A DNA stretch of 64,000 nt from Phorcus lineatus (taxonomy: Eukaryota; Mollusca; Gastropoda; Trochida; Trochidae), in NCBI GenBank assembly GCA_921293015.1, contig OV121082.1, forward strand, positions 48,876,971 through 48,940,970, given 5' to 3'. Made by a program: the position numbers and the translations under genes. Below the pieces are notes generated by a model. It had not been told where the DNA came from and did not search any database. It was given only the letters and a program-made list of their open reading frames with translations. Shown in pieces: positions 3,201-48,000 of the stretch (position 1 is the first letter of the stretch; every line of letters begins with the position of its first letter).

Positions 3201-6200
3201 TCAATATATTTACATTCTAAATCTACTTGGAAATGTATACATCTAAATGAGGCTATTAATTGTACTCTACAAATATTATTTTCAGATAAGACTAAGAATG
3301 ATCAATGGCCATGTTCAACTTGCTTTTGAATCATCATAAACAACTAATCAATAACAACATGAGATACAAACACTTGCAATTGTCACATGGATAATTGGTT
3401 GAGAACATCAGTGTAGCAAATCAAAGGCAACAAGGTATAATAGATGTAAGAATGACCTCACAGCTTACTTGAGTATATGGAAATGTTGCTCTAGGTTTCA
3501 GAACTGTTGAAATATTTGTAAGTCAGGAAAGAGGTTGCCGTATATTTTCGGCCATAAATGAATTCTCCCCTACCTGTTTGAGGAAGCCCTCCATAGCCAC
3601 CATGCCCAGATGAGCCAGTTCTCGGTTGTGGTGCTTGTTCCAGCTGTGAAACTTCTCGTACATACCCTACAGGCAAAAATAAACTGAGTTCATTTCATCA
3701 AATTAAACAAAATAGTCTCTACAGCAAAATGTTTGGCTACAGAAAATATTACACTTTCACAAATATTAAATATTTGATAACAGATTTAAAAGTGATATCT
3801 GCCCTTGACATGCAAAGCATAGGATTTGGATTGGCCTCCAGGCAGGGTGGTCATATATGCAAAATCATAATTTTGGTGGATTTTTTTTAATATTTATTCA
3901 AAATATAGTTAAAATTTGTAATGATTAAGAAATTGTGGATCTATATGCTAATACACATCCAAAAGATGATCCTTAAGAAAATAGAATAAATTGTCATTTG
4001 GCTGATCAACCAAAATATTTATTTACAGGCAGTTTAGGAAATACCTTCTTCAGTGCAAGTGAGATGATGAAAATAAATTAAATTGTGATGTATTATTGCA
4101 GTCTTTGATTGGACTTTGTCCAGCTCTTACCTGATAATCATCAGTGATGTACTGGTCAAACTGACCACAATGTTTGCCAAACAGTCGCAGTCCTCCCCGT
4201 GGCACGTCATATCGAGAATAGTTCACTTTTGGATCAATTGCCATTCTTGCATACTTGAATATTGCATAGCTGTGTTTGGAACCTACAACAGTTATTGGTA
4301 ACTTGTCAATGAAAAAGATGAAAATATCTATCTAAAAGCGATCACTTTGTAAAATTAATTATATCAATCTAACATAACTGGTGTAACTTAAGAGAAGATC
4401 ACCAAAAAAATTAATGAAATGGGACCAAGTTCTATTGTTTAAAAAAAAAAACACACACACAAAAGTCAACCCCCCTTTGAAACCCCCCTCCCCACATATT
4501 TTGAATAAAATTCTTGGCTTTTAAATATGGAAAACAAAGGGACACTTTGTTTCATTTGCTAAAATTCTTGAATAATCTATGATGAACAGAGAAGACCAGA
4601 ATTGATATTCAAACTTTTCTAGATATATTTAACAAAATTGAAAAGCTTATAGATTTAATGGGGCCCCTTTTTTAAACGAGTTTTCTGGACAAATTGACTT
4701 AATAAAGTGAATAGGTTATCCATGATAATGAAACATGAAATGTTCCCTTCCAGGATTTATTATTTTTTAGAAATTGTATTGGGTAAAAAAGTGACTTACC
4801 CTCGCCTGCAGACTGTGTGAAGTTGACAAGATATGCTGTGAGTCCCTCCAAACATCCAGCTATGACTGGCAGCTCAGGCTTTCGGGTTTTAGCTTCCATC
4901 TGTAACAAGAGCGGCAGTTAAAAGATTATGATAAAGAAACTATATAATCAGCTAATAACATGAAGCTAAATCAAGTTACACCAAAATCATCTATACCCCA
5001 TTATAACTATTCCTATAAGGCGTCAATGCTTTTATTTCCATTATTACTTGGAAAATTGAATTTAAAAAATCCTAAAAATAATAAATTTGACTAAAATCAT
5101 TCTCAAGACATCCTGCTCCATCAGTGTATTTAAATCTGCAGAGTTCCTTCTAGTACCCTGATTTCATTCAATAAAATACATTGCCATAAATTCATACAAG
5201 ATTTAGCTCAGTTCATCACCCGGTAAACCGACGTTTGATTCTCGGTAGCATCATACCAAGAGACGTTAAAAGGTGGAACTTGTTGCTACTTGGCACTCAG
5301 GATTATAATGATAGAACAATGCTGTACTACTCGGGCTGCGGAGGCTAGGTGTCAAGGGCACAAATCAAATTTCCAAAATGAACATGTATTGAGGATTATA
5401 AAGAGTTAGTATTATTATCACTGTTATTATTATCATGATAAAAGAAACACAACCCTGAGTTATTGTGGATGTACTTACCTCTGCTTTTAGAGCATTCACA
5501 TAGAGACCGACAAGTCTCTCTGAATAGGCAGCCATCAGCTCGGGGTACACTTCGGATATCACTCCTAGTAACTGGTATACATTAGCTTTCACTAGAAATA
5601 TAAAAGAAACTAATAAGTTAACTATACACAAACTTTAACCATAAGTGCATTCGCTCAAGTAAACAATTCCTACACTAACCTCCAACCTTATACGAGCACT
5701 TCTCGGACATCTGGCAGATTCCCTAGTGGTAAATACTTGCAACACAATCTATCTGCAAGATAGCCCAATAAAGCACTTTTTGCATTGAAAATGTGCTTGC
5801 TGTCACCGAGGCCAATGCTCTGAATCTGCCACCATTGCTCAGTTCAATAAATTCCAGTCTTCCTAAAGCAAATGAAATGACTGAGGATTTATGAATGATT
5901 ACTCTTGCTAAATTGTCGCTAAATGCACAACTAAGATTGATTATCATTATCATAATCAGAGTTTTCCCTTTAGGACCCGAAGTGCTCATGGAAAAGAAGG
6001 TAGTGTAAGATTTTAAAAATTAAGCTAACTCTGTGGGATTATCCAGATTCAAATATCAATTCATGTACACAAAAAAACCAAGTAGAACAAGTATTATTGT
6101 TGACAAGTCTTCATTCAAGCACTGACAAGCAGTATAATGGCTTAGCGTGTCTCTAGCATGCTTAAAAACTTGATTACAATACAAGAATCAGTGCAAAACA

Positions 6201-9200
6201 ATGCTCTTTTAGAATATGAAGATATTGATCATCAAGAGTAATATCTTGGGAATTTGGTTTGTGTGGAGGGGAAAACACTTGAATACTAATTTTACAACCT
6301 AATGAAGAAAATAGAGCCATGGGCTCTGTAGCTCATCAGACTTTTGATAGAAATAGGTGTTTGGGTTTAGACCATGGGCTCATGGGCAGTGTAGGAAAGA
6401 TAGCCTGTCCCAACGTCTGACCCAACGTCTGAGTTATTCACGATCAAATAAAAAAGACCCATTGCCCATTTGGGGTCAAGGGGTCACCGAACCTACAATT
6501 CAGAATCCCCATTGTCCAAGGAGTCTACACACAACTATTAAGCTATCAAGACCTTTTGGAACTGGAGAAGAAGATGAAAGTAGGATTTTAAGGTTTTGAC
6601 CCCTGTGACCCCATTTGGGGTCAAGGGGTCACCGAACCTACAATTCAGAATCCCCATTGTCCAAGGAGTCTACACACAACTATTAAGCTATCAAGACCTT
6701 TTGGAACTGGAGAAGAACATGAAATGGGATTTTAAGGTTTTGACCCCTGTGACCCCATTTGGGGTCAAGTGGTCACCAAACCTACAATTTAGAATCCCCG
6801 TTGGCCAAGGAGTCTACACACACCTTTTCAGCTCTCTAGACCTTTTGGAACTAGGGAAAAAGATGAAATTAGGTTCTATAGGTTTTGACCCCTGTGACCC
6901 CATTTGGGGTCATGGGGTCACCAAACCTACAATTTAGAATCCCCGTTGGCCAAGGAGTCTACACACACCTTTTCAGCTCTCTAGACCTTTTGGAACTAGG
7001 GAAAAAGATGAAATTAGGTTTTATAGGTTTTGACCCCTGTGACCCCATTTGGGGTCATGGGGTCACCAAACCTACAATTTAGAATTTGGCCAAGGAGTCT
7101 ACACACACCTTTTCAGCTCTCTAGACCTTTTGGAACTGGAGAAGAAGATGAAAATAGGTTTTTCAGGTTTTGACCCCTGTGACCCCATTTGGGGTCACCA
7201 AACCTACAATTTAGAATCTCCAGTGCCCAAGGAGTCTACACACAACTATTCAGCTCTCTGGACCTTTTGGAACTGGAGAAGAAGATGAAAATAGGTTTTT
7301 CATGTTTTGACCCCTGTGACCCCATTTGGGGTCATGGGGTCACAAAATCTACAATTTAGAATCTCCAGTGCCCAAGGAGTCTACACACAACTTTTCAGCT
7401 CTCTGGACCTTTTGGAACTGGAGAAGATGATTAAAATAGATTTTTAAGGTTTTGACCCTTGTGACCCTATTTGGGGTCATGGGGTCACGAAATCTACAAT
7501 TTAGAATCCCCATTTGCCAAGGAGTATGCACATAAAATTTCAGCTCTCTAGAGTCATTGGTTCTGGAGAAGAAGTCGAAAAAGTGAAAAGTTTACGGATG
7601 GACGGATGGACAGACGGACGGATGCCGGACGCCTTGCCATGCCATAAGCCCATCGGGTCTTTCAGACCTGATGAGCTAATAAAAAAATCTGCTGAAAGTC
7701 ACAAACTTTCAAATATTTCTTATAAGACTGATCTGCAATGCCTTGGTGGCATGTCTCAGTAAGACTTTCAATAGTTGTAACATTGATTAATGGCTTTGAT
7801 TATCAATCTCTATGTTTTGAAAAAGACATGTTTCTCTGTCAAATCTCAAGCATTCAAAATATTACCCTCAGTGATATGTATCAATTATGTATCAATTAAA
7901 TTATGTCATAACAGAAATGTTCCTCCAAATTTGTTGACACAAAAATCCCCTTTATAACCTTATCTTTAGAGAGCATTTAATGACAACTGATACCTGTAGC
8001 CTGTAGTTTTGAGGAACTCTTGGTGAGTTCCATGAAGAGCTTCTCGATGAGTTTGCTGATCTTGAGCTGTTCTCCGAGTGATGATCCAACACTCACCTCC
8101 AGAAGCTGAGAACACACAGACAAGACTTATCATCTTTAAATCATTAATACTATATTTCCTCTGTGGCCTCATCAAACAGATGGATGGAAATGCAGCTGCG
8201 CCATGCCATGCCCAAAACATGTATGCAGATAAAACACTTTTAGTTAAGAAGAAAATTTCATAGCTTCTGAAACTTTTAATGCCAGGTCTCTTATAAGGAT
8301 CCAAGGCTGTATTGACAGCAGGTCTAAGATTCTGCCTAAGTGCTTTTTTGAGAAATGAAATTATTTTAAGTATCTGGTCAAGTTTGGCTGGTTTGAATTC
8401 TTGGAGAACATTAACAAATGTCTACTAAATATCAAATGTTAGTTGGTATGACCATGGTCTGAATTTAGTCCAACAAATAACAGACTTTGAACAGGTAACC
8501 TGGTAAGATTGTATTTAAAATTTTGTCCTAAGCTGTACAACAGTGATAGCTAACCACTCGCCATAGCTCGAGTGATATTTATAGAAACAATCAGTGGCCA
8601 GGTAGCCAATGCATCACATACCTTGATTATCACTGGAATTGCTGCATTTTTCACCTTGGCAAACCTGTCTCTGGTAAAGAGGGAAAAGCTGATTTCCTGG
8701 AAATTAAGGAGACAGCTTCACACATCAACAGTATTGTAACTATTCAACTAGCCTGTAATACACAAGGAAATGTCTTACAGATATCAAGAAGAAAATCTAA
8801 AATGTATGAACTTCCAAAAAAAAGAAAGATATGAAGTTACTTACCTTTATGTCTACGGCATACACAAGGATCTTCTTGCCAACTTTGGAGGTGAATCCAG
8901 CAAGGAGATCCAAGAGACTTGCCTTGCATCCTTGGTACTGTGAAATGTATCCATTAGCAGAAACACTTACATGGGTGACTTCATAAAAGCAAAAACAAAG
9001 TCAAGAAGATATAACCTTGTGAGAACAAATCAGGCCACTAGTTAAAGGGAGACAAGGAAGGGACTCTAGCCCATCTGGAAGTGGTAGCTAATAAAGAAGA
9101 CCTGTGTATCCTGGCCTTAGTGGCGAGACGATATATCCCGATTTTAGTTCTATTAGGCAAGACGATATATCATGGAATTATTGCCAAGGAACCTGCGAGA

Positions 9201-14209: not shown

Positions 14210-22197
<7,988 letters not shown>

Positions 22198-23535
22198 TTT
22201 CGTTGTGGCATATCAAGGGACGTAACTCGTGCGGGCACCTGCCAGCTGTGAGTCTAAAATGATAAAAGCGTAGGTGAAAAATCCTTTACAAAATATAATC
22301 CCAACAAAAAAAAACCAGTTACTGTACAATCAATATTTGATAAATCTGTATCTTGTTTTTTTTTTCATATGATGATAAACTAGATGGAAATGTATCTTAC
22401 AGGGTACTAAAACTTACAAGACATACATGCTGCAGTAGTCGAATCAAATTCAAAGTAAGCTTTATTTAGGAAAATATAACGGGTTGAAAAAATTCAATGA
22501 ATATAGTCAACGTCTTAAACTAATTGTAAAGTCGGGTCTTACAATTCTTTCGAAAGTGATTTAACGAAATGTAAAAGGTGCATTGTTGGTGTTAAATCAT
22601 TCAAATCTTAACTTTTATATAATCATCTAATGCCAGATTTCGAAGTAAAAGATTTCACAATTATTTCCTATTAACAAGCAAATTACTTTTATTTTCAGTC
22701 ATATTTTTTTCTAAATAGAGTTAAAACAGTAAATAGAGAAATATTTGGTATATATATAAAATATAGAAGCTCTACCATTTGTACAATATAGAAGTTAAAA
22801 ATACATTTTTACTATATAACCCGTTTTTATTTAAAAAAAACAACTCTGCTTTCCTGATGATTACTGCAGTCGACCATCCCGCAAAAAGTTCTTAAGTTTA
22901 ATGTCAACACAATAAATAAAGAAGCTTAAATGAATTGGAAAGTATCTCAGTAAAGCATGCGATTAAGTCTTCACTTTAATAATGTTACTTTTAAAGTATT
23001 CAGCATGCAATAGTTCATATCTTACATGTATGTTGTACGGCCCAGAGGCCTTAAAAAACTGAAAAAATATGTCTGTCTGTTTGATTAAAAAACACACCTG
23101 AAAAGTACTATATATAACGTCTTAAGGAAGGGTTATCGCAACGCTTTATATACTGCAAAAGGATGATATATCTATGAGATTCAACTGATGTTTGATTCAT
23201 TGATACGAACCCTACTATGGAGAAGTTCTCAGACCAGGAACGCAGCGAGATACGAGTGAAAGGTAGCGCTGATTTCAACGAGATTGCCCAGATTTCACTA
23301 CTTTCGTTCTTTCTTTGAATATTTAGAAAATGTTGATGGAACTGTATCTAAAACACCAAAACTGAAAAACGATGTTATGGGGTTTAAGACTATTGACAGT
23401 AATCTAGAACTTACGTAAGAGAAGTCTTAATTACAGTCTATGACAAATCGGATTCCCCGCCATGTCAACACCGCAGGGGTCAACTGATCACGTGATTTAA
23501 TAGTCGATCACATGATCTAACATGCTTCAGAGAAA
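22198..23535. promoter_or_regulatory. head-to-head intergenic region between KAT2 and SPHK
   Basis: This 1.34-kb spacer separates divergent start codons, so both promoters must lie here or in upstream 5' UTR exons. The KAT2 side (22198-22260) and the SPHK side (about 23210-23535) are richer in CG dinucleotides than the middle, which is very AT-rich. Next to the SPHK ATG are two palindromic E-box-like sites, TCACGTGA at 23488-23495 and GATCACATGATC at 23506-23517. The middle has no open frame or recognisable repeat. Confidence 0.55.
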
Positions 23536-26500
23536 ATGGCGACGAGACGAGGCGAAGTCCTTCTGTCAAGTGAGTTTGGACTTTATCCGAAGAAAAGGGG
23601 TACTTATAAAGTGTTATTGACTCGTACAACTATAACGTACAGCCCCCAAATAGACGCTGAAAGTGCAAATGAACTTAAAATAGTTCAATTAAGTGATGTG
23701 ATTGGCTGTCGCTGTCAAAGATCGCCGGGATGTGTGTCAGCTTTTGTCACAATATTTGCTTACCCATTCAAGAAAAAGGTTTTCAGTTCGAAATCGACAC
23801 GAAAGAGATTGCCTGTAATCTTTGAAGTGAAAGGTTCGCCTTCCTTTGATGAAAACCTGCGTATTGCTGAAAAATGGAGGAATGTCATCAACTGTTTGTC
23901 TCGGGGAATCGCTTTGAACCTTTCAGGTGAGTTTGTTTACAATGTCAATAGATCTAGTTGTAACAAACACCCATAATTGTTTCATGGTCTTCATGTGTTT
24001 CCATGGTCACAGCTTGCGTTTATAACACTTCATAATTAATGCGTGAGGTGAAAGCCAGTCACTAATTAATACTCACCATAATAGTTTCTTTAGTTAAATG
24101 AATGATATAACTAAATGTCAATATTATGATGTGGATAAAAATAAATAGATGACACTATCATTTTTGTTATTTACTTATTTTGTGTCTTCTAACTTCCATT
24201 CTATAGCAATTGTCATCATATCATATCTTGCTATTGTTAGAAAAAATACAGCCATGTTTACATTTCAGTAACAATCTAAGACACCAAAATTTATTTATTT
24301 TCCCTGACTTATGTCTCTTATAATATTATGCCATGTAGATAATGAGTAATATCTACAGTAGTGTACATGCAGATGTTGCAAGTTATTTGTTTGCTGATAG
24401 TGTTATCTTCTCAGTGGGATGACAAGTTCCTAATAGATAACATCATCAACTTTTTGGCTGACATTTTATTTTTTAATTTAACAATGATTTTTTGTTATGA
24501 AAAAATATTCTGCATTGGTATCAAGAAATAGAATACAGAGAACTCAATTTTGACGGAAAATTGTATTAAAAAAATTAGATTCTAAAGATTGTTCTCTTTC
24601 ACATAAACTCTATATCTAAACATGATCATTTTCACTATTCTTTGGTAGTATCTATCAACTCACTGAACAGACATTTAGACTTGGGGAAAAACAGTCATGA
24701 AGTGTGGTTTGGTCAAATCATTGGCCAAATATTCACACAATTTACCACCCTACAACTGTAGTTAAAATCAGCTGTATCAAGATAATAACTGATAAGAAAT
24801 ACTGATAAGATAATACCATTAATACTAGTAAATTTCTGAAAGCTCACACCTAACCACCTTCCAGTAAGCCAAATACATCTTCATGATCATTGGATTTATC
24901 TAGTCCTTCAGACTTAGCAGCTATTGCATTTTATTAGCTTAGTATCCTGTCAACTAGCCATGGGCTACTGTCCCGATGACTACCTGTAACCTTACACAAT
25001 AAAGTAAATAGTTTATGGACTTCCTAAAGGACTATTTTTCAGGAAGGCTTAGTTCAGAACAGAGTTTTCTAAATAATGAATTTTTATATTGCTACATCTT
25101 CCAACACATGGCCTTAAAGAGCCACTCCGTAATTTTCATGACATATTATTTACCTTTGATACAAACCTAAATGTCATATGTGGTCATATAAAATTTAAAA
25201 AATCTTAACTTTTCATGTCCAAAAGACATATACATGACAAATACTTGTTTTCCATGAAAATCTTAAAACGGCCTTATAAATGTGTCCAATACACATGGAT
25301 ACTAGTTATATAATTTAACAAACACTATAAACTCCTACCTGCCCTCCTGGCTCTTTTAGATAAGTCTCCAAATTACGTTTGACTATTTGACGCGCGCCAC
25401 TGTCCGAACTTCGATCATTATTGCGACATTCTACCTTCATATTGTCACTGTAAAAAAACAATAAGCTTTAAAATGTGTCTTTTAGGTAACAGTCGATACT
25501 TCGTGACACCATTGATTAAGTTTGGCATATTTGACTCCAACAACTCATGGAGTGGTTCTTTAAATGTGCCAGCCCCAATTGACTGGCTAATTCAGGTCTT
25601 GCAGTATTCCCCCAACATTTCTGTGCTTGCTGTCCAGGCTGATGCAACGAATTTTGATAGTTCAATGACAAATTTTATTGAGAATTGAAAACTTAAATAA
25701 ATAAGCACTGCACTCAATGCAAAAATTTTGGTGTGTTAGCAGAAAGGTTTAGATTAACCAGTGATTGAGACTAGCACAACTGAAAACTATGCACAAGAAG
25801 TTGTTCTTGTTATAAATCAAATATACATAGTATGTTATTTGATTCAGAAATATTTGTAAGATATGCATGACCCCTTGAAGAATGACCTCGCATGGACAAA
25901 AACATTCATTTATCTCAATGGCCATCTTTAACCCTTACGTTGCTGAATATTATTTTGACCAGTTTTGCCCCCGTGGCTGAATTTTCCAGCACTCGCCTCG
26001 CTACGGTAATAACGCAATTAGCCCCTGTGGCTGAATTATTTCGCACCGCGAGTCGCGGCTGTTTTTTCGATAAATGGTGTATTCACATGGCGGATTACGG
26101 ATGAAACTGACCGTTCGATACAAAAGTAGCCCGCCAATCCCGTACACAAATGAACGATCTTTATCCGACACTTTGAATGAAATTTTTATCTTACCTAGAA
26201 CGGTTTCTACAACTGAAGTAAACTTGTTTTCAATTCGGGCGCCATAACTCAATAAATTCCAAGAGCGCATGCGCGAAATCAAAACGAAACTAAGGATGAA
26301 TTGTTCCCCTTCACATCGATATAAAAATTATTTTTATAATATGTCTGGAACGAATTTTACAAAATTTTAAAAATTGTCTTCATTTCAAACATTATAAAAT
26401 CATTCAATCACTGAGTGCACACATGCAAATTATATACGGAATTGAAGCTAATTTTTTGCTCTATATTTCACGATAAATTTTATTACGATACGCCATCCTA

Positions 26501-29500
26501 AACGAAAGATATAAATTACGAAAACAGGGTAGTGATAAATCCCGATAACGCTCTGACCCCCACAGTAATATTACTAAGCTAATAGCCCCGGGCAAACGCA
26601 CGCGCTCAGCGCGTGCAGGCGGGGTATCCCCGTTGAAACATACACTCACACACAATATAAATTGTCTTTATTTCCAACTTTATAAATCATGTTATTCGCT
26701 TTGTATACATGCAAATTATATATGGAATTGAAGGCAATTTATTCTTCTTTACGAAGAAATAAATCAAATTCAATCTTTTGCACTGTAATTAGAAGTTATT
26801 ACCAACGAAACGTGGGTATAGCTAGTAATAAATTCTTTGATAATCGCCTTACCGCAACATATGTCGCATCGTTTCCACACGTTTTATTTTGATGCAAATA
26901 TGGGCAAATTACACATGAAAATGAAGGTATTTCTTTCTGCTTTACGATGATATGAAAATAATAAATATGTACCACTTGGTTTGGAATATATAAAGTTTGC
27001 AAAGATGGTACCCTCGGGTATTTTAGAACAGATTTTGATAATTGCGACATCACTAACCGCTCCTTTATTGTCTAATTGTAATTTGCAAATTTTATATAGA
27101 ATTGAAGACGATCCTTTCCTCTTTATTGTGATATAAAAATGTCGATAATGCGCTCTGCCGTTAAATGGATAGGAAGTGTAAAAAGCAGTTGAAAATAAAT
27201 CGCTTCTCGGTAAACAAAATATGAATAGAGAAATTGCCTGTTTGTGCGATGCGCGCCGGGTCCTTTCTGATTTTCTTGTACTTACCAATTTTACATGGCA
27301 ATAAAGATTATCCTTTTCTCTATATTTTGATATATGAAATTGCAAAATTTACCGAGAAGTTTATGTGATATAAAGTGCGAGAAAATGGTAAAAACGTAAA
27401 GAATAAACAAAAGTCACAATTTTGCGGAACTTGCTGTATCTTTATTCTATATGGTGTATATAATTTTTTTATATCAAATCGAAGACAATTATTCCTTCTT
27501 TATCACGATGTAATCAATTTCAAAATACGCCTAGCTGTTGAGAAGATATGAGCGAAAGAAAGGCACATGTCAAAATCGCCGTTCAGTTTACATGATTTGA
27601 ATCGAGAAATTAGCTTTTTGTGCGGCGCTTGCTGTGTCTTTATTTATTATCGCGCATGTACACATTTTACATGGAAAGAAAGACAATCTTTCTCTCTGTC
27701 TTTCGATATAAAAATTGTCAAAATACGTTGAGCACATCATGTAAAAATTGGTGTGACAAAATGGTGTAAAACTAAAAATATGTAAAAATCACCTTTTTTG
27801 CGGCACATGCTGTATCTTCAATTCAGGTAGCGTAGTTACGTATTTTATATTGAATTGAAGACAATTTTCTGCTCTTTCAAATGATCCAACCGGTATTGAA
27901 ATCCGCCCAAGGGTTCAGAGCATAGGGCGTGCGATATAAGGTTGTACGTTTGGTGTGAGTGCAGGCTTGTAAGCAAACGATAGCACGCGCGGGGCGGTAA
28001 GCTCGTGCGAGAGGGTAGAAAGTGCCCACAGGCTATTAGCACGTGCGGCGGGGAGTGGGGGAAAATTGAGTGATTTTAAAGCTTATTTTCGGTACGATAA
28101 ACGTTATCAATCGTTGCATAATTTTCGGAACATGTACGCGCATTATTTAGAACACCAACGAAACAAAATTCGGTAGCTTAGCGACACACGGACGGAAAGT
28201 ACTAGCGTTGAACTGACACTACTGCCGTGCAACAATTGCCCGTCCTTCGCTACTGTGAACCTCGGCGTTAATGAGCTAGCGTGAGAAAAATAGAGTTTGG
28301 ATGTCGCATCTCGCCCAGAGGACATGCGGTCAAAGCAAATTTCAACCCGGACAGGCCCAGGACCCGCATCTTAAGGGTTAATGTAAGTTGTGCTACGGTT
28401 TTTGCATTTATAGGTAATCTAGGTCACAGTTTCCTATAAGATTATTTACATAGTGATCATGTTCTCATGCTGTTTTATAGTGAAGCTATAATGCCAAGGT
28501 CATAGATAAACATTCAGGTTCTTTTTACAGACCTGGGTTAGGAGTTGCAAAGTTTTACAACTAAATAAATGTGCTTATAGATACCAGTTATGGTAATGTA
28601 CCTTCATATCTATTTATATAAAGAGGAAAACTGGTTGACATCCTTTAAAATTTTGTCAATGATTTGTAAAGAATATATCTTTTATGAAGATGCTTTTAAA
28701 TCAAATTCTTGTGTTTATTCCTTATTCTTAATAGAAGTAAACTACTGAAAGGAAAAAGATTTGTAAATTACTGCTTGGATGCAAAATTAATTTTTTTCTT
28801 TTTCTTTATGAGAACACATTGGTTCATTTCAATCCATCTAAAACTACCCAGAGTATTCATTCCAACTTTTTGATTATATCAATTACAGCAAGGACCTGTA
28901 TTATATATATTACAGGTCCTTGATTACAGGGAGTTATTCAAATAGAAATTTGTACCACATGTTAATGTCATTATCAATATGAGATGAATTTAAATCAAAA
29001 GCTTAACTCATATTTTGATGATTCCGAATGGAAATGTTTTGAGGTAGACATGAAATAGTCATGGAAGCACCTGGTAATGTCATGTATATCACATGATAAT
29101 TACCCACTCCATATCACAGTGGGACTGTTAAACAGCCTAAACTATATCATATAGCTGATGGCTATGGTAGGTCTTCCTGGTTTTAGGTGCATATCGTGTT
29201 TGTGATGATCGTTTAATTGATTAATTGGTTTCCTGGTGTGTCTACTCAATGTTAATTATAAATAACTGCAAACTAATTTACATTCTGTTTGCTAGAGTAA
29301 TTATTCATCTATCTTTAGTATGCCGCAAATGTTTATGGTATTTGAGAGTCATGTTACCTCTTGGCTTGTAATGAATTTATTGCATCAGTTTGTAAAGTTA
29401 TGCTTACACTTATTTTTGATATCATTAATAAAGTCTGTATTTATTCATATGTGGAATCTCAGGTATATTGACAATAGCAGAACTAGTAGTTGAAGTAATG

Positions 29501-32500: not shown

Positions 32501-33877
32501 GGTGAACCCAGTCCTGCACTCCACCTTCATCCTCATCAAACACAACGTGCTGCCCATGGACCTCGTTCTGGTCCAGACTCGGAAACAACGTGTCTTCTCC
32601 TTCCTGTCCGTCAATTGGGGAATCATGGCCGATGTAGATTATGAGAGTGAAAAATATCGAAGTATCGGGGAGGCCAGATTCACACTTGGCGCTCTCAAGC
32701 GTATTCTTAGTGAGTCAAAATAATCCTTATGAGTTCCAGAGAAATCCCTCTATTGAAGACATAGTTCATACTTTTGAATTACCAAAGTGAATGCGGTCAA
32801 AAGTCAATTTTAAATGTATTGTGTTTCTTTACAAAATATGAACTAAGATGTGTGATACTTTGTAAAGGAATTTTCACAGCGAAGTCCCATTCAAAGTAGT
32901 TTCTAGTTGCCATTGTAAATAAAAGATTCATTTGTTTAGAAACCGGATGAATTTGTACAATGTATTTTGATTAACTTTCAGATTTACGTTCATACAAAGG
33001 GAGAGTGTCCTTCCTTCCCGTCGCTGAATACAAACCTCGAGTGGTAGGCGGAGAACAGCAACCTGCTGTCCTGACAAAGATCCGTCGCTTCTCACTACAA
33101 AGCCAGAGTAACAGTAAAAGTACTCTTAGCTCAGGGAGCAACGATCAACTTTCTCTTGATCTCGATGTGGAATCCATGAGTTTGCCACAGTCACATTCCA
33201 GTTTAGCAGAAGAATTCCAGAACAATGAATCTCAAACACAAACTCAAGTGAATGGAGATTTCTCGCACAATAATAACTCTGAAACTGCCTCAGGAACTCC
33301 CAACAATATGGCGGATAGCAATGGACATATTGAAAAAGAAACGTCAAGTAATTCTGGGGACGTGTCAACTGTGCCAAAAAGTGACTTACAATGGAGGAGG
33401 AGCACCATCACTGCTGCAGGGAGTCGAGAGGATATTGAAATAGAAACTGAAACAGCAACTGCCAAAAAAAGTGAGAATCATTATCTCTCGACGCCGTTAT
33501 TACCTCCCCTTGATCAACCAGTGCCTGAGGATTGGGCTGTGATTGAAGACTCGTTTATTTCTGTTGCTCTTCAGTACCAGACCCATCTGAACAGTGACAT
33601 GCTTGCAGCACCAGAGGCACATCTTAGTGACGGCTTCATGTACCTAATGCTGATTCGGGATGGCATTTCCAGGAACAACCTTCTTAATTTACTTCTCTCG
33701 TTTGCTGAAGCAGGTCATGTTGACTCTCCTCATGTGGAGATAGTAAAGGTGTTGGCATTCAGGATCGAGCCTGAGGCAACTGAAGGTAACTTGATGGTGG
33801 ATGGTGAACGAGTGGACTTCGGACCAATACAGGGCCAAATACTGCCTAAACTTAGCAGGATTATGGCAATTAAGTAA
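23536..33877 (+). CDS. SPHK2: sphingosine kinase (SPHK1/2 ortholog)
   Basis: Phosphorylates sphingosine with ATP to make sphingosine-1-phosphate, at the boundary of ceramide turnover and S1P signalling. Exons: 23536-23926, 31285-31529, 31804-31919, 32489-32709, 32982-33877; 1869 nt, 622 residues, all phases consistent. The diacylglycerol-kinase-like catalytic core starts near residue 140 (RLLILINPHSGPGKA). It has the SGDGL nucleotide-binding motif at about 205-209 followed by YEVINGLMERPDWEEA, PGGSGNAL at about 235-242, and SFLSVNWGIMADVDYESEKYR. The C-terminal half (DGFMYLMLIRDGISRNNLL) is also conserved. A low-complexity Ser/Thr/Asn/Gln-rich insert occupies roughly residues 350-505 within the last exon; its presence and the overall length resemble vertebrate SPHK2 more than SPHK1. 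An invertebrate gene need not correspond to one vertebrate paralog, so the symbol is nominal. The start context is strong (AAAATGG). Confidence 0.95.
23927..25927. other. SPHK intron 1, left part
   Basis: AT-rich intronic sequence. A 71-codon plus-strand frame at 25473-25688 shows no family resemblance and is not needed to join exons 1 and 2, which are already in phase. No other feature seen. Confidence 0.6.
26400..27890 (+). repeat. diverged ~190-bp tandem array inside the piggyBac-like element
   Basis: A recurring block reads roughly GCAAATTNTATATNGAATTGAAGNCAAT, then TTCTNCTCTTTNNCGATATAAAAAT. It recurs near 26427, 26708, 26893, 27078, 27291, 27459, 27657 and 27846. Most spacings are 170-210 bp; the first, about 280, probably hides a lost unit or a gap. 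Units are strongly diverged, so the array is old. Confidence 0.6.
26599..26617. repeat. short perfect GC palindrome
   Basis: GCACGCGC, a three-base TCA loop, then GCGCGTGC form a perfect 8-bp stem inside the piggyBac-like element. It is unusually GC-rich for this AT-rich locus. Confidence 0.6.
28382..31284. other. SPHK intron 1, right part
   Basis: AT-rich intron with no coding signal. It contains the hairpin at 28889-28922, and a weak tRNA-like stretch around 30540-30620 that I do not call. Confidence 0.6.
28889..28922. repeat. 34-bp hairpin in SPHK intron 1
   Basis: CAAGGACCTGTA and TACAGGTCCTTG are perfect 12-bp inverted arms around an AT-alternating centre, forming a compact cruciform-capable palindrome. 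Confidence 0.8.
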
Positions 33878-42029: not shown

Positions 42030-45000
42030 TCATATTTTCTGTGAGTCACCATGATAAGGTGAATGTTTTAAGGACTCAAGAAACATACTCTCTTCTTCCA
42101 AGTATTCCTTGTCCTGAAAAAAGATATGCAGTATGATGATGAAAATTTTTTGTAAGATAAATAAAAATGAAGAGATAATATTGAAAATAACAATTAAGTT
42201 ACATTTAAAATCCAACTCAATCATCGATCTGTTTATATAATAATATACACCATTTCCCCACTAATCAAATACGAAATATTTGCTTTTAAATTAGGAAAGG
42301 ATTCCTTGAATTCAACAGTTCAGAAGATTTTTAAAAAATTCATATGGAAAAGGGTAATTTACTTACTTAGAGTGTCTTGATATAATGGTGAAAGTAATGA
42401 GTTAATCAGAGAAAAAATCAAGGCACATCATATTTTAACTATCTTGAGATGTTACAATTATCATGTCTTGAAGTAATGATTCAGAGACTTACTTTGAGAG
42501 CTTGTATTTTCCACATTCTGACAGACCTATCAGCCGCTATGGACGATGTGATGGTCTCTATTGCGTTAAAGGAGAGGTTGTAGCTGCTGTTCCCATGATG
42601 CATCATGTTCCCAGCATGCATTGGCATCGGGGATCTTGTGCCGTTGATGGGCGACATCATAGGGATGGCAGTTGTTAGTGGCACTGAACGAAACATTAGA
42701 TGGTAATTTCTCATGTTTTAAGAAGCACAAGCCCCAAACACAATTATATGGACTTCAAGCACATTCTAGATGAGACAATAAATAAACACATGTCTAGAGT
42801 TACATATATATTAAGAAAAATGATCAGAGAAAAAGTGTAATACAAAAATCTATTCCTGACAGATAACATTTCCATAGGTGTAAAGTAACAATGCTTACAC
42901 ACTACTAGGTTATGCCCTGTTCTATCCCCAATTACTTTACATTTGCCAGAAAAGAATTTTATTTAAAGTCCACTCACTATGAGCCGGAACTATGCTGGAG
43001 TCAGCAGGTCTGAGAGGAGTCCGACAGTTTGTGCAGAGAGAGGAGTTCTTCAGATTTTCAACATCCTTCTTCTCCTTGGCCAGTCTCAGCTTCTCCTGGT
43101 GAAAATAGAAGCAAAAGGGTTTTGTTTGTATTCAGAGTGAAAATCACAGAACTGACAACACTACGCTTATGTAAAGAGACAACATGCTCCTCCAAATTTT
43201 GAATTTTTTTTACTTAATATTTTTTTTAAAAGGCCTGATTAAGAAGAGTAACCACATTATTGTGTAAGTGAAATGTCTGTGTCCTACTAATTAGAACAAC
43301 TTTGCTTTATAAAATAGATTTAATGGAATTTGCAAATAACAAATCAACAGAATGGTCAATAGCATCTTGTAGTGCCAGGTTTTCAAACTCTTAGCACAAA
43401 TGACCGGCTTTAAGGTTTTTTTTGTGTGGTAAAATTGCCAAATCAAAAGCCACAAAGGTAAAGCATTAGCGTAATCGCTGTAATTTCTTAGCTGCAATAT
43501 ACATTAATAGCAATTTTTTGCAACATAAGGCATTCAATAGCCTCAACAACGGGAAGATGTTTAATAGATTTATAGAATAAGTCTGAAAGACATCCTTGAC
43601 CAAAAAATATCGCTATCAAGCTCTACCTCAGCGATGTGCTCCTCCATGTTGCGTACGTTCTGCTGCTGTCTCTGCAGTTCTTCCAGACGCTGGTTGTGTT
43701 GAGCTTCAATCTGTCTCGCCTCCAGCAGCGCCCTCTCTCCCTCACGCTGGGCTTTTGCTGATAACTGGCAGTCCAAAGATTAAAATATTCATCAAATGCT
43801 AAATATGCTTAATCATTTGGACATCTTTAATCGTGTTCATTTATTCAAAGCTAAGCTAAACATACTCAGGAAGTCAATGTATCATAAATCTTTCATTTGT
43901 TTATCAAGAAGACAGCAACAATTATTCAACAACATATTCAATAGAACAATTGTCTCATACAAGATAATCTTATCCATGACAACTCTTTGTTTGAAATCAC
44001 CATATGCTTCTTGGTAACTTCTTGCCCCTTCTTCGTTTAGGCAATACATAGTCCAGCAAGAATGCATGAAATGAATAAAGCAGCTGCAATAATACTGTCT
44101 TGTAACAATACTTAAACTACTAAATGCTTACAGAACATTTACTTGTAAAAATTATTTTCGAATGCTGGACATGGGCTCACACTGATACTGGCTTTGTTGG
44201 TCTATAGAGTTAGTATTTCGAACTTGTCCAAAAGAAGATTATCCAGATCATATGGTGTTTGAATAAAAATCTCAATGAAACATCAGACTATAAATACAGC
44301 ATGAGACTCACATCAGTCAATGAATCGACCTCAGCTGACTTGTGTTTGACCTGCATGGCCATCTCATGCAGATTTGATCTCTCCGCATCTATCTTAGCCT
44401 TCTCTCTCTCCAACCTATTCCTCTCTGCTTCCATCCTGTCTTCCTCTCGCTGTAGTTCTTGTAGACGCTGAGACGTCTTAACTCTCTCCTCAGCAATTGA
44501 CTTGGTCAACACCTCATACTCTGCTTCAGCCTGAAGATTAAAAATTCATATGATGTTGATAAAGATGGCAATGAGGATATTTTATCAAGAATGTTTATAG
44601 GGAGTGAGTTATTGTAAAGAAATGCTTTGGCAAGTATGTTTGAAAATAACTGGCTAACCTTTTGTGATTATGATGAAAAAAGTTTGCTATGAAATAATTT
44701 CTTTTTAACAGGCTTACAAAATCATTTTCAAATGCAACAAGCAGACAGAGTCAGCTATATCCCCCGCCAAAGGGAAAGGGTAGTTAAGAATACTAGTTGT
44801 GGAATATTGAACAGTGATCATGTTGTTTTTCTACAAACAACCTTTAAGAAATCCTATGTTACGTTTCCATGGAAACGGGTAAAAATAAAAATGCAATGAG
44901 GTTGAAAACCCCAAAAGGCACATCTCCGCATGATGCCCCTTGCACATACCAAGTTTCGTCGAGCTAGGTCTCACCGTTTTGGAGTTGTGCTCCGGAAACA

Positions 45001-48000
45001 TTAACGGGTAAAAATAAAAATGCAAAGAAGTTGAAAGCCCCAAAAGGCACATCTCCGCATGATGCCCGTTGCACATACCAAGTTTCGTCGAGCTAGGTCT
45101 CACAGTTTTGGAGTTGTGGTCCGGAAACGAAATCCTATGTTACGTTTCCATGGAAACGGGTAAAAATGAAAATGCAAAGAAGTTGAAAACCCCAAAAGGC
45201 ACATCTCCGCATGATGCCTGTTGCACATACCAAGTTTCGTCGAGATAGGTCTCACCATTTTGGAGTTGTGCTCCGGAAACAAAATCCTATGTTACGTTTC
45301 CATGGAAACGGGTAAAAATAAAAATGCAAAGAAGTTGAAAACCCCAAAAGGCACATCTCCGCATGATGCCCGTTTCACATACCAAGTTTCGTCGAGATAG
45401 GTCTCACCGTTTTGGAGTTGTGCTCCGGAAACATTATCGGGACGGACGGACGGACGAACGAACGGACGGACGAACGGACGGACGGACGAACGGACGGACG
45501 GAGACCATTTCAATATCCCCCACCAACTATGTTGGGCAGGGGATAATGAAGTTAAAACCAGTGCACAACAATATGTTAAGGATTAAGTGTCAACTAACAT
45601 GCATGTTTGGACTCCTTAGAATTACTTTTTATAAAAGTCGGTTATGTTTTGATGGATAAAATAATTTAACCTGGGCTGCCTTGATGGCATCATGGTTCAT
45701 CCTCTCTCGGAGCATCTTCTGGTCCACGTTGAACTTGGTCCGCTCCTCGGCCAGCGCACGTCGCTCTTCATTAATCTGGTTCATTGACGATCTCTGTTCC
45801 TCCAGGAACGATGACTGTTCAGGAACAAGATTGTAGGTGTCAAAAATAGGTAAAATATCAAGTATCTCACAGTTTTTATTTGCTTTTGTATCATTTTTCT
45901 TTAAAAGATTATTTGAGAAGATATAATTCCTAAATTTCAAACATGATTTTTAAATGAAATATACTGCACCAGTGTATGGCTAAGGCTGGTAACATGGTAA
46001 ATTGTAAAATCTTTATTTACATCTTGATGACCTCTCTTTTGCCAGAAGCAAAGCAAGATAACAACATAAAGACATTTGCCGTACCCTGGCCCTCTCTATC
46101 ATGTCCCTCTCCCGAGACTGCTGCTCCACCCACACTCTCCTCTCCTCCTCCAGAGACTTCTGCTGGGCCTCCACTCTACCATTCTCCTGTCTCAGCTTCC
46201 ACCGCTCCTGCAACACAGGGAAAATTACATGTCCAATCTATATCAATGGTTCTAAACAGTGCATGGATCCCCCATCGCTTCAAAAACACACAGGGAAATC
46301 ATGTCAAATCTATATCTATAAATGGTTCTTATGGGTATAAAAGAATTAACTCCAATTGCTTTTACACTCAGGGAGAATAAAATCTATATCAATGGTTCCT
46401 ATGAGTGCATCAACCTCATCACTCCTACAAATCAAAGAGAGAATACAAGGTTAACCCTTATCAATGTTTCTTATTATGTTTTTACAAACTTCCATTGCTC
46501 CAGATTAACACAAGAAGAAGCAAGGTTTATCAATCTTCTATTGCAAGGCAATCAGTTAACATCACTAAAGCCAATCTGCCAACCTCATCGAGCATGCGAG
46601 TCTGTTCACGGAGCTGCGTCTCCATACGAGAGATGAGTTCCTCCAGCCTCTTCCTCTCGTTCTCATTGTCAGCCTCCTGTCTGCTCAGTCGCTCCTGGAG
46701 GACTGGCAACACACATAGTCATTTTGGTGCAGGCGGTTTGTAAAAAATTTCAAATGATTTCCATAAAAGATTGTTAAGGGGATCAAGCCCAGCGTCATGT
46801 ATCTTTACATAAGAAAGCAATATCTGAAGTGTCAACGTTCAAATTTAAATATTCAAAAAATTGTTTTCACTATTTCTCAAACATGTTATCAGTGCTTTCT
46901 TCACTACATCCTATTCTATGGATACACATTACTAAGATATTTGAAACATATTGATATTATTTGTACTATTACATCAATCTAAATTCTGCTCAATCTGTGA
47001 AATACGCTGAGTATGGTCCAAATGTTATTAAAAACTTTTGAAAGCATATTATTGAGATTACAGTCCTAATAAGAATAATGTAAACTCCTTACTTCTGAGC
47101 TGTTCATCTTTAGACTTGAGAGAAATCTCCCTATCGTCCAGCCCCTGTCTATGCCAGCTGTCTACCTTGTGTTGCAGCTCACCCAGATCCTTTGCATTGT
47201 TCTGGATCTGTTCAACCACTGCTGTCAAACTCCTGTACATAGAACAATAATTGTTTGTTAATTACAGGAATTGCTGTTATAAATTGACTCATGCCAAGGG
47301 TAGTATGAATCCAAATGCATTAAAAGATTATTAAAAATTTGAGCCTGTTTGTTTATTACCCTTTCACCCTAAAGAAAACAGAAGAAATATGTTTACGAGC
47401 CTCATTTCAGGCCTGTAGGGGTGAAAGGGTTAACTTGACAATTTTAGTGTATCATAATAAAAAGTTCAGGCTTATATATAAGCACTGATAGATAAACATG
47501 TACTTATTCTACACAACGTTACAGGATCAATCAGAAACTTTTGCATTGGCACCTTTCTTATGCAGTAAGTTTCAGTTTACAATGAAAAGTGTAGTCTTTT
47601 CAAATGTAACTTTGTGTCAAATATCGTCAGACCATACCTTGATGTGTCATGAGCATTTGCCACAGCTTCTATTTCCAAATTCTTTGCCTTCTTCATTTGA
47701 GCCACCATTTCTTCTTGTTCTCTTTTCATCTCAGCTATTACTGCCCTGCAATCCAGGCAAAATATTATATTTAATTAAACGAAATCTGCATTTCACCATG
47801 AAATCACATTATTACCTTTGTGATAAAGAAAAACAACCACATGAATCTTCTATGTTAATGAAATATCACTTTTGACAACCTTAATGTTCAATTCACTCAA
47901 AAAACAGATGAATTCATTTTCCCTTCTTGTGGTAGAGTTAAACAAACAATTATCAAGGTTACTCACCGATGTGCTTCCTTGAGTTTCTGCATCTCCTGCC

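Follow-up and report, generated by a model that had tools for sequence, protein, structure and literature searches.

We analyzed a 64,000-nucleotide stretch of the genome of the gastropod Phorcus lineatus (assembly GCA_921293015.1, contig OV121082.1, positions 48,876,971 to 48,940,970 of the forward strand), referred to here at its full length as the window, which carries a transposon-like element at window positions 25928-28381. The host gene had been named as SPHK in an earlier reading made without database searches (the sequence-only reading), and this was confirmed by a 300-amino acid (aa) frame at 32975-33877 that matches sphingosine kinase 1 (E 3e-21). The same reading had described a TTAA-bounded, 2.45-kb element with inverted ends and at least eight diverged units of ~190 bp but no transposase, and the description was borne out: the element spans 2454 bp with inverted ends of 12 bp (10/12 matching), and no transposase was found within it, the longest stop-to-stop frame being 154 aa and the element giving no Pfam match.

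The element ends are TTAACCCTTACGTTGC and TTAACCCTTAAGATGC (14/16 matching when TTAA is included), with 12-bp terminal inverted repeats (TIRs) of CCCTTACGTTGC at the left and CCCTTAAGATGC at the right. By themselves, the inverted tips are weak evidence for an element. Seven of the 29,189 TTAA pairs spaced 60-6000 bp apart in the window match at 10/12 or better, the 25928/28381 pair among them; with a CCYT tip also required, one pair was observed in the window, and any such pair was present in 3 of 200 simulated windows. The observed/expected (o/e) CpG ratio is 1.47 within the element vs 0.26 and 0.10 in the two flanks of 500 bp, with a mean of 0.38 elsewhere in the window (500-bp windows) and a maximum of 1.37 at another tandem array. 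Unsupervised change-point analysis placed the edges at 25938 and 28397 (28366 being within 0.5 log-likelihood units, lnL), and within 3 lnL the start ranged over 25376-25999 and the end over 28328-28397. Because of this CpG composition and the change-points near the tips, the element was judged convincing before any genome search. A candidate for an asymmetric piggyBac-like subterminal repeat was rejected; for its 13/17 match, 7 of 1000 shuffles did as well at the length used, and 390, 303 and 114 of 1000 did so at lengths 12, 14 and 20, respectively.

The features of the window copy are as follows, where L numbers denote other loci of the genome (L029 and L032, further copies; L050, L051, L052 and L054, autonomous elements) and A and B denote two subfamilies of copies.

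25928..25931, + strand: left TTAA target-site duplication; the empty sites of L029 and L032 carry one TTAA
25932..25943, + strand: left TIR, 10/12 to the right end and identical in 14 other subfamily A copies
25928..26209, + strand: left end module, 97.9% identical to autonomous L050 over 282 bp
25928..26209, + strand: the same module compared with subfamily B, ~20% different (28% within 26005-26197)
25964..25992, + strand: subterminal direct repeat, copy 1, 79% identical to copy 2
26018..26046, + strand: subterminal direct repeat, copy 2, 79% identical to copy 1
26361..26546, + strand: unit u1, groups with left-array units
26547..26646, + strand: u1-u2 spacer, holds a GC-rich stretch
26647..26839, + strand: unit u2, groups with left-array units
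26840..27020, + strand: unit u3, groups with left-array units
27021..27219, + strand: unit u4, groups with left-array units
27220..27397, + strand: unit u5, groups with right-array units
27398..27595, + strand: unit u6, groups with right-array units
27596..27773, + strand: unit u7, 87-88% identical to the penultimate right unit of L050, L051 and L054 (78% in L052)
27774..27959, + strand: unit u8, 82-84% identical to the last right unit of L050, L051, L052 and L054
28015..28381, + strand: right end module, with 97-100% identity to L050 and L051, both autonomous
28366..28377, - strand: right TIR
28378..28381, + strand: right TTAA target-site duplication

All eight units lie on one strand, and each was recovered by a hidden Markov model built from the other seven (E 2.5e-9 to 1.8e-22), with pairwise identities of 41-67%. 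Spacing between units is 178-199 bp except for u1-u2 (286 bp); in the right half of the array it alternates near 199 and 178 bp, and a dimeric order is apparent when the u4-u5 pair is aligned to the u6-u7 pair (67% identity). Within the units, a 54-column core was found to be 65% identical vs 44% for the other columns, a difference reached by none of 5000 column shuffles. RNAalifold predicted no pairs for a conserved RNA structure of the units, and an Rfam scan of the window gave no match at the gathering score and one chance-level match (E 0.3). A unit hairpin suggested by single-unit folds was likewise dropped, as its covariation score was reached by 173 of 500 shuffles.

The window's own genome (958 Mb) was searched for copies, and the best 40 of 2972 candidates were scored. 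These comprised the window element, one interrupted copy and 38 further full-length copies, such that at least 38 full-length copies of 96.8-99.8% identity exist elsewhere in the genome. On inspection, TTAA was found at both tips of all 38 (39/39 with the window copy), and the flanks were mostly unrelated. Two copies reside in tandem arrays, L029 in one of 56-bp units and L032 in one of ~100 bp; when their flanks were joined with a single TTAA, the joins matched the neighbouring repeat units at 63/64 and 61/64 positions, respectively, and thus the empty site has one TTAA. The sequence-only reading had assigned the element to piggyBac by its ends and taken it to be mobile; both stand, given the shared ends and TTAA of the 38 copies, the two empty sites and the transposase encoded by six elements with the same ends (see below).

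The ends themselves are abundant. A 33-bp left-end pattern (up to 1 mismatch) had 1481 matches in the genome and a right-end pattern had 440, compared to 0 for each reversed control. A viral source was considered and rejected: exact core and right-end patterns were found in 0 contigs, and a left-end 18-mer in one contig with no similarity past the 18 bases. On contigs 1 and 2, each of 95 listed exact left ends was checked for an exact right end in the correct orientation within 15 kb. By this approach 55 were paired, 30 at 2440-2460 bp, 9 at 1705-2412 bp, 4 at 2519-4545 bp and 12 at 6165 bp or more, 10 of the long pairs spanning 6165-6509 bp. The family includes many TIR-bounded, non-coding copies of homogeneous length (the 30/55 pairs at 2440-2460 bp). 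Two paired ends were inspected; L060 is an eight-unit copy, and L059 is a copy of 2252 bp with seven units that lacks 196 bp, i.e., one unit. An invariant unit number, as seen in the 39/39 best copies, was therefore dropped as a property of the family. No right tip could be recognised in L062, an older copy. From the copies inspected, the family spans several ages, and the window copy is in the youngest group seen. Among private changes of the copies, CpG transitions made up 18/185 of all changes and 18/60 of those of the C>T or G>A type. By our own arithmetic, CpG sites hold roughly 27% of the C and G positions, and there is no CpG excess among the changes, unlike the CpG-poor host flanks. 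From this lack of excess, the copies appear young and their germline state is probably unmethylated. A separate observation concerns L048, a subfamily B copy in which a sequence of ~767 bp (1393-2159) that starts with CAGGGTTCGCAC and ends with TGAACCATG is nested with ATCGA at both junctions; we presume this insert to be possibly a hAT-like non-autonomous element.

Transposase matches to PF13843 numbered at least 116 in the genome (the best 116 of 1060 candidates), all above the cut-off and with no internal stop, and eight of these 116 loci were inspected. Six (L050, L051, L052, L054, L057 and L058) share the ends of the window element and have open transposase frames of 664, 662, 653, 668, 662 and 662 aa within elements of 5553, 6430, 6789, 5295, 6130 and 6429 bp, respectively. 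In 6/6 of these elements the transposase gene is flanked on both sides by ~190-bp units of the same orientation. The left array has 6 units (5 in L057, one of them partial) and the right array 4 (L050, L054), 6 (L051, L057, L058) or 8 (L052), some edge units being partial matches; the order in the inspected full-length members is left end, 5 or 6 units, transposase gene on the opposite strand, 4, 6 or 8 units, and right end. The variation in unit number that the sequence-only reading had anticipated is thus found in these right arrays as well as in the seven-unit copy L059. L051 and L058 come from separate contigs and share 99.8% identity across 6.4 kb. When compared to the sequences of solved structures, the L054 protein matched piggyBat at E 2.4e-74 and piggyBac at E 3.3e-39; for this protein, three aspartates that we take to be the catalytic ones were aligned with those of 6x67 and 9c0f. 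The other two inspected loci, L049 (C32:9831581) and L053 (C7:59501959), represent further piggyBac transposase lineages with frames of 561 and 447 aa from ATG, and no ~190-bp unit was present in the stretch inspected at either. Beside the right array, 520 bp of L050 (element positions 3908-4427) and L052 (element positions 4119-4638) are 97.9% identical compared to 84.4% for the preceding 3.9 kb, indicating exchange among autonomous copies too.

The window units were placed in a tree of 54 units, taken from four autonomous elements and from the subfamily A consensus. For most of these the closest unit was the one occupying the equivalent position in a different lineage (the first left unit next to another first left unit, the last right unit next to another last right unit), and thus units mostly evolve by descent in place. 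Strict position-by-position evolution was dropped, as in L052 the pairs l4/l5, r2/r4 and r3/r5 are nearest each other (91-95%); these exceptions and the right-array counts of 4, 6 and 8 would fit duplication or exchange of two-unit blocks. In the same tree, which is of moderate support, u1-u4 group with left-array units and u5-u8 with right-array units, and u7 and u8 show 78-88% identity to the final two right-array units of autonomous elements. Four left-type units followed by four right-type units is the arrangement expected if an intervening gene had been lost. The parent of such a deletion was not found among the autonomous elements inspected. Because the inspected full-length members carry units on both sides of the transposase gene, the satellite-like repeats are probably an inherited part of an active piggyBac family and not captured cargo. 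The sequence-only reading had the element packed with satellite repeats instead of a transposase; the array is present and the gene absent, as it stated, but with arrays on both sides of the transposase in 6/6 inspected autonomous elements the array is more likely to be ancestral than to have been captured by the window element.

The element is a mosaic of ends and array. Compared to L050 in 40-60-bp windows, the first ~280 bp of the element are 95-100% identical (85-97% to L051) and the last ~365 bp are 97-100% identical to both L050 and L051, whereas identity of the interior compared falls to 35-92%. Copies fall into subfamily A (15 copies, mean pairwise difference 0.25%) and subfamily B (24 copies, 0.41%), the consensus sequences of which differ at 66 sites, 62 within 25928-26360 and 4 in the other 2 kb. 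The first ~80 bp of subfamily B equal those of L051, including the CTCTTAAG tip. At 26455, 26724, 26928 and 27406 (4 of the 15 biallelic sites right of 26350), left type and body allele occur in all four combinations, and in L022 and L023 an A left end is joined to a B-like body. The A consensus was also compared to three other copies. Its outer left 282 bp differed by 19.6% from L060, 19.2% from L062 and 18.6% from L061; in the same order, the values were 0.5, 7.8 and 13.8% for the right flank and 0.3-0.7, 2.4-3.5 and 6.2-7.7% for the array, such that the left end outpaced the array in 3/3 comparisons and the right end did so in 2/3. These comparisons therefore demonstrate recombination between copies; the direction of end exchange, and gene conversion as its route, we infer.

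Taken together, these results indicate, at a probability of about 0.9, that the window element is a large non-autonomous piggyBac, inserted recently by cut-and-paste at TTAA, moved in trans by an active piggyBac of the same genome, and kin to array-bearing piggyBac elements. This reading is carried by the TTAA duplication, the many near-identical copies, and the open transposase frames of elements that share its ends; a transposase of the L050/L051 type would be the one that moves it. As a mechanism, we propose that the left and right arrays act as direct repeats around the transposase gene, that recombination or slippage between them would delete the gene and leave a fused array, and that the ends would later be exchanged with those of active copies as the old array stays. 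That the arrays are mainly recombination substrates inherited from an autonomous ancestor is about evenly balanced in our estimate. We hold more tentatively, at odds somewhat below even, that the element is an end-tracking parasite, in which the old array is kept and the termini are repeatedly swapped, via the paired direct-repeat arrays, with those of whichever autonomous lineage is active.

Several observations weigh against this interpretation. The array-bearing pattern was seen at six of the eight loci inspected, out of the 116. Units u1-u6 are at best 60-69% identical to any autonomous unit inspected, a closely matching autonomous interior was not found, and the tree nodes that join u1-u6, on which the deletion origin rests, have support of 0.39-0.97. 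The left tip is CTCT and not CC[C/T]T in 22 of the 24 subfamily B copies. Finally, 40 of the 95 listed exact left ends are without an exact right end; three of these were inspected and found to be two full-length eight-unit elements (89% and 94%), in the second of which no right tip was recognised, and one truncated autonomous element.

If the end-tracking reading is true, the arrays would be a native device of this piggyBac lineage that yields gene-less derivatives and keeps them mobilisable. Two things usually found apart, kilobase satellite-like arrays and an autonomous, apparently active piggyBac, are here joined. The case allows tests of how a large non-autonomous element can still be recognised as the transposase changes (by end swapping), and of whether the satellite-like arrays of transposons serve as cargo, as cis elements or as handles for recombination. 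With open transposase frames lying between the paired arrays, a direct experimental system is at hand.

An alternative role for the arrays, possible and ranked next in our view though at less than even odds, is that of functional cis elements, i.e., repeated subterminal sites to which the transposase or a host factor would bind, aiding or restraining transposition. The flanking of the gene by two arrays in all six autonomous elements inspected, retention of the array in the non-autonomous form (none of the 55 end-paired elements is below 1705 bp), and the conserved core of the window units are consistent with such a role, and piggyBat is described as restrained by subterminal binding sites (PMC11707139). 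By contrast, core and remaining columns diverged alike in 11 orthologous unit pairs of L051 and L052 (98/592 vs 186/1019, P 0.42), the core was no slower than the rest between non-autonomous copies, no 10-mer from the outer 110 bp of the ends recurred in at least 7 of 32 units (9/10 matching), and no RNA consensus structure was predicted.

It is improbable that the array is a host satellite captured by a piggyBac, as were ribosomal DNA (rDNA) spacer repeats by Pokey of Daphnia (PMC3849761), and still exchanging with its host source, although a capture may have taken place long ago. The monomer length is typical of satellites and Pokey provides the precedent, but most units are nearest to the same-position unit of another autonomous lineage and are not homogenised with an outside source. 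The core pattern (up to 3 mismatches) had 7975 sites in the genome vs 50 for the reversed control, and 100 listed exact core sites of the u8 type on contigs 1 and 2 were examined for spacing. For 47 of these sites an exact left end was located upstream on the same strand, in 43 cases at the distance of 1.84-1.98 kb expected for u8; for the other 53, none was found within 4 kb. No two of the 100 are within 1 kb of one another, and thus no unit array outside the elements was seen among them; the seeding of satellite DNA elsewhere in the genome, suggested in the sequence-only reading, was not observed in this sample.

A Kolobok-type non-autonomous element like Xenopus T2 with its Xstir repeats would have the same TTAA target, and Kolobok is reported in bivalves (PMC10294476), but Kolobok termini start with RR (PMC6004289) and those observed here with CC or CT, and this reading is refuted by autonomous copies with the window element's ends that encode a piggyBac transposase. 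An intronic regulatory island rich in CpG, with TTAA paired by chance and no insertion, to which the near-chance level of the TIR alone and the CpG-rich stretch upstream at 22.1-23.6 kb might point, is even more firmly refuted by the 38 other full-length copies, which have the same boundaries and lie in mostly unrelated flanks, and by the empty sites.

Several other features of the window were noted. The upstream CpG-rich stretch (22101-23600, o/e ~1.0-1.1) extends to an open frame at 23521-23976 for which no Pfam or PDB match was found; together these may represent the promoter and the first exon of SPHK. Further tandem arrays occur at 1019-1596, 6465-7581 and 44874-45433, with units of 129-152 bp and matches of 82-95%, the first and third being CpG-rich. 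A small hairpin at 47358-47433 with arms CCCTTTCACCC and GGGTGAAAGGG adjoins TTAA and is possibly a separate tiny TTAA element, and a second TTAA pair (46451/47433) was rejected as a related element since little is shared beyond the tips.

The element was finally compared to known systems. The piggyBac superfamily is characterised by a TIR of 12-19 bp with a CC[C/T]T tip (PMC2872659), and here the TTAA duplication, a CC[C/T]T TIR in the window copy and a DDE_Tnp_1_7 transposase in six elements with the same ends were all found. Miniature inverted-repeat transposable elements (MITEs) are non-coding and bounded by TIRs, and occur in many copies of uniform length; the window family shares these features, but MITEs have a size limit of ~800 bp, and at 2454 bp the window element is instead called a large non-autonomous element. 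The coral CMITE, a piggyBac-type MITE, resembles it in TTAA, in CC[C/T]T tips and in an interior more conserved between families than the ends, but is ~100 bp long without a ~190-bp internal array, its tandem arrays being of whole elements (PMC2872659). In Xstir on the Xenopus T2-MITE, a TTAA element likewise contains tandem repeats that arose from the element itself, but the tips are RR of the Kolobok type, and Xstir arrays also stand alone (PMC6004289, PMC12628747). The Cg_HINE Helentrons of oyster similarly hold a short array inside a non-autonomous element, with monomers predominantly of 140-180 bp; unlike the window family, in which TTAA is duplicated, they belong to a rolling-circle family, lack a target-site duplication and have both subterminal repeats and a palindrome at the 3' end (PMC7492417). 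piggyBat (PDB 9c0f), the closest solved transposase by sequence, has repeated subterminal sites, but its active ends are described as 153 and 208 bp and kilobase arrays are not mentioned in the part of the report available (PMC11707139). A search of openly licensed PMC literature, mostly at the level of titles and the opening lines of abstracts, gave no piggyBac whose transposase gene is flanked on each side by unit arrays. The window family is piggyBac by the features tested, and the nearest precedent seen is Pokey, a member of the piggyBac superfamily in Daphnia, in which several ~200-bp repeats likewise lie beside the transposase, vary in number and recombine, and of which non-autonomous derivatives are known. 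Pokey differs in that its 2-5 repeats are upstream of the transposase, originate from the rDNA spacer and are homogenised with the spacers, and in that mPok is without repeats (PMC3849761); by contrast, the arrays described here lie on both sides of the gene, most units diverge by position, and the non-autonomous form keeps eight.

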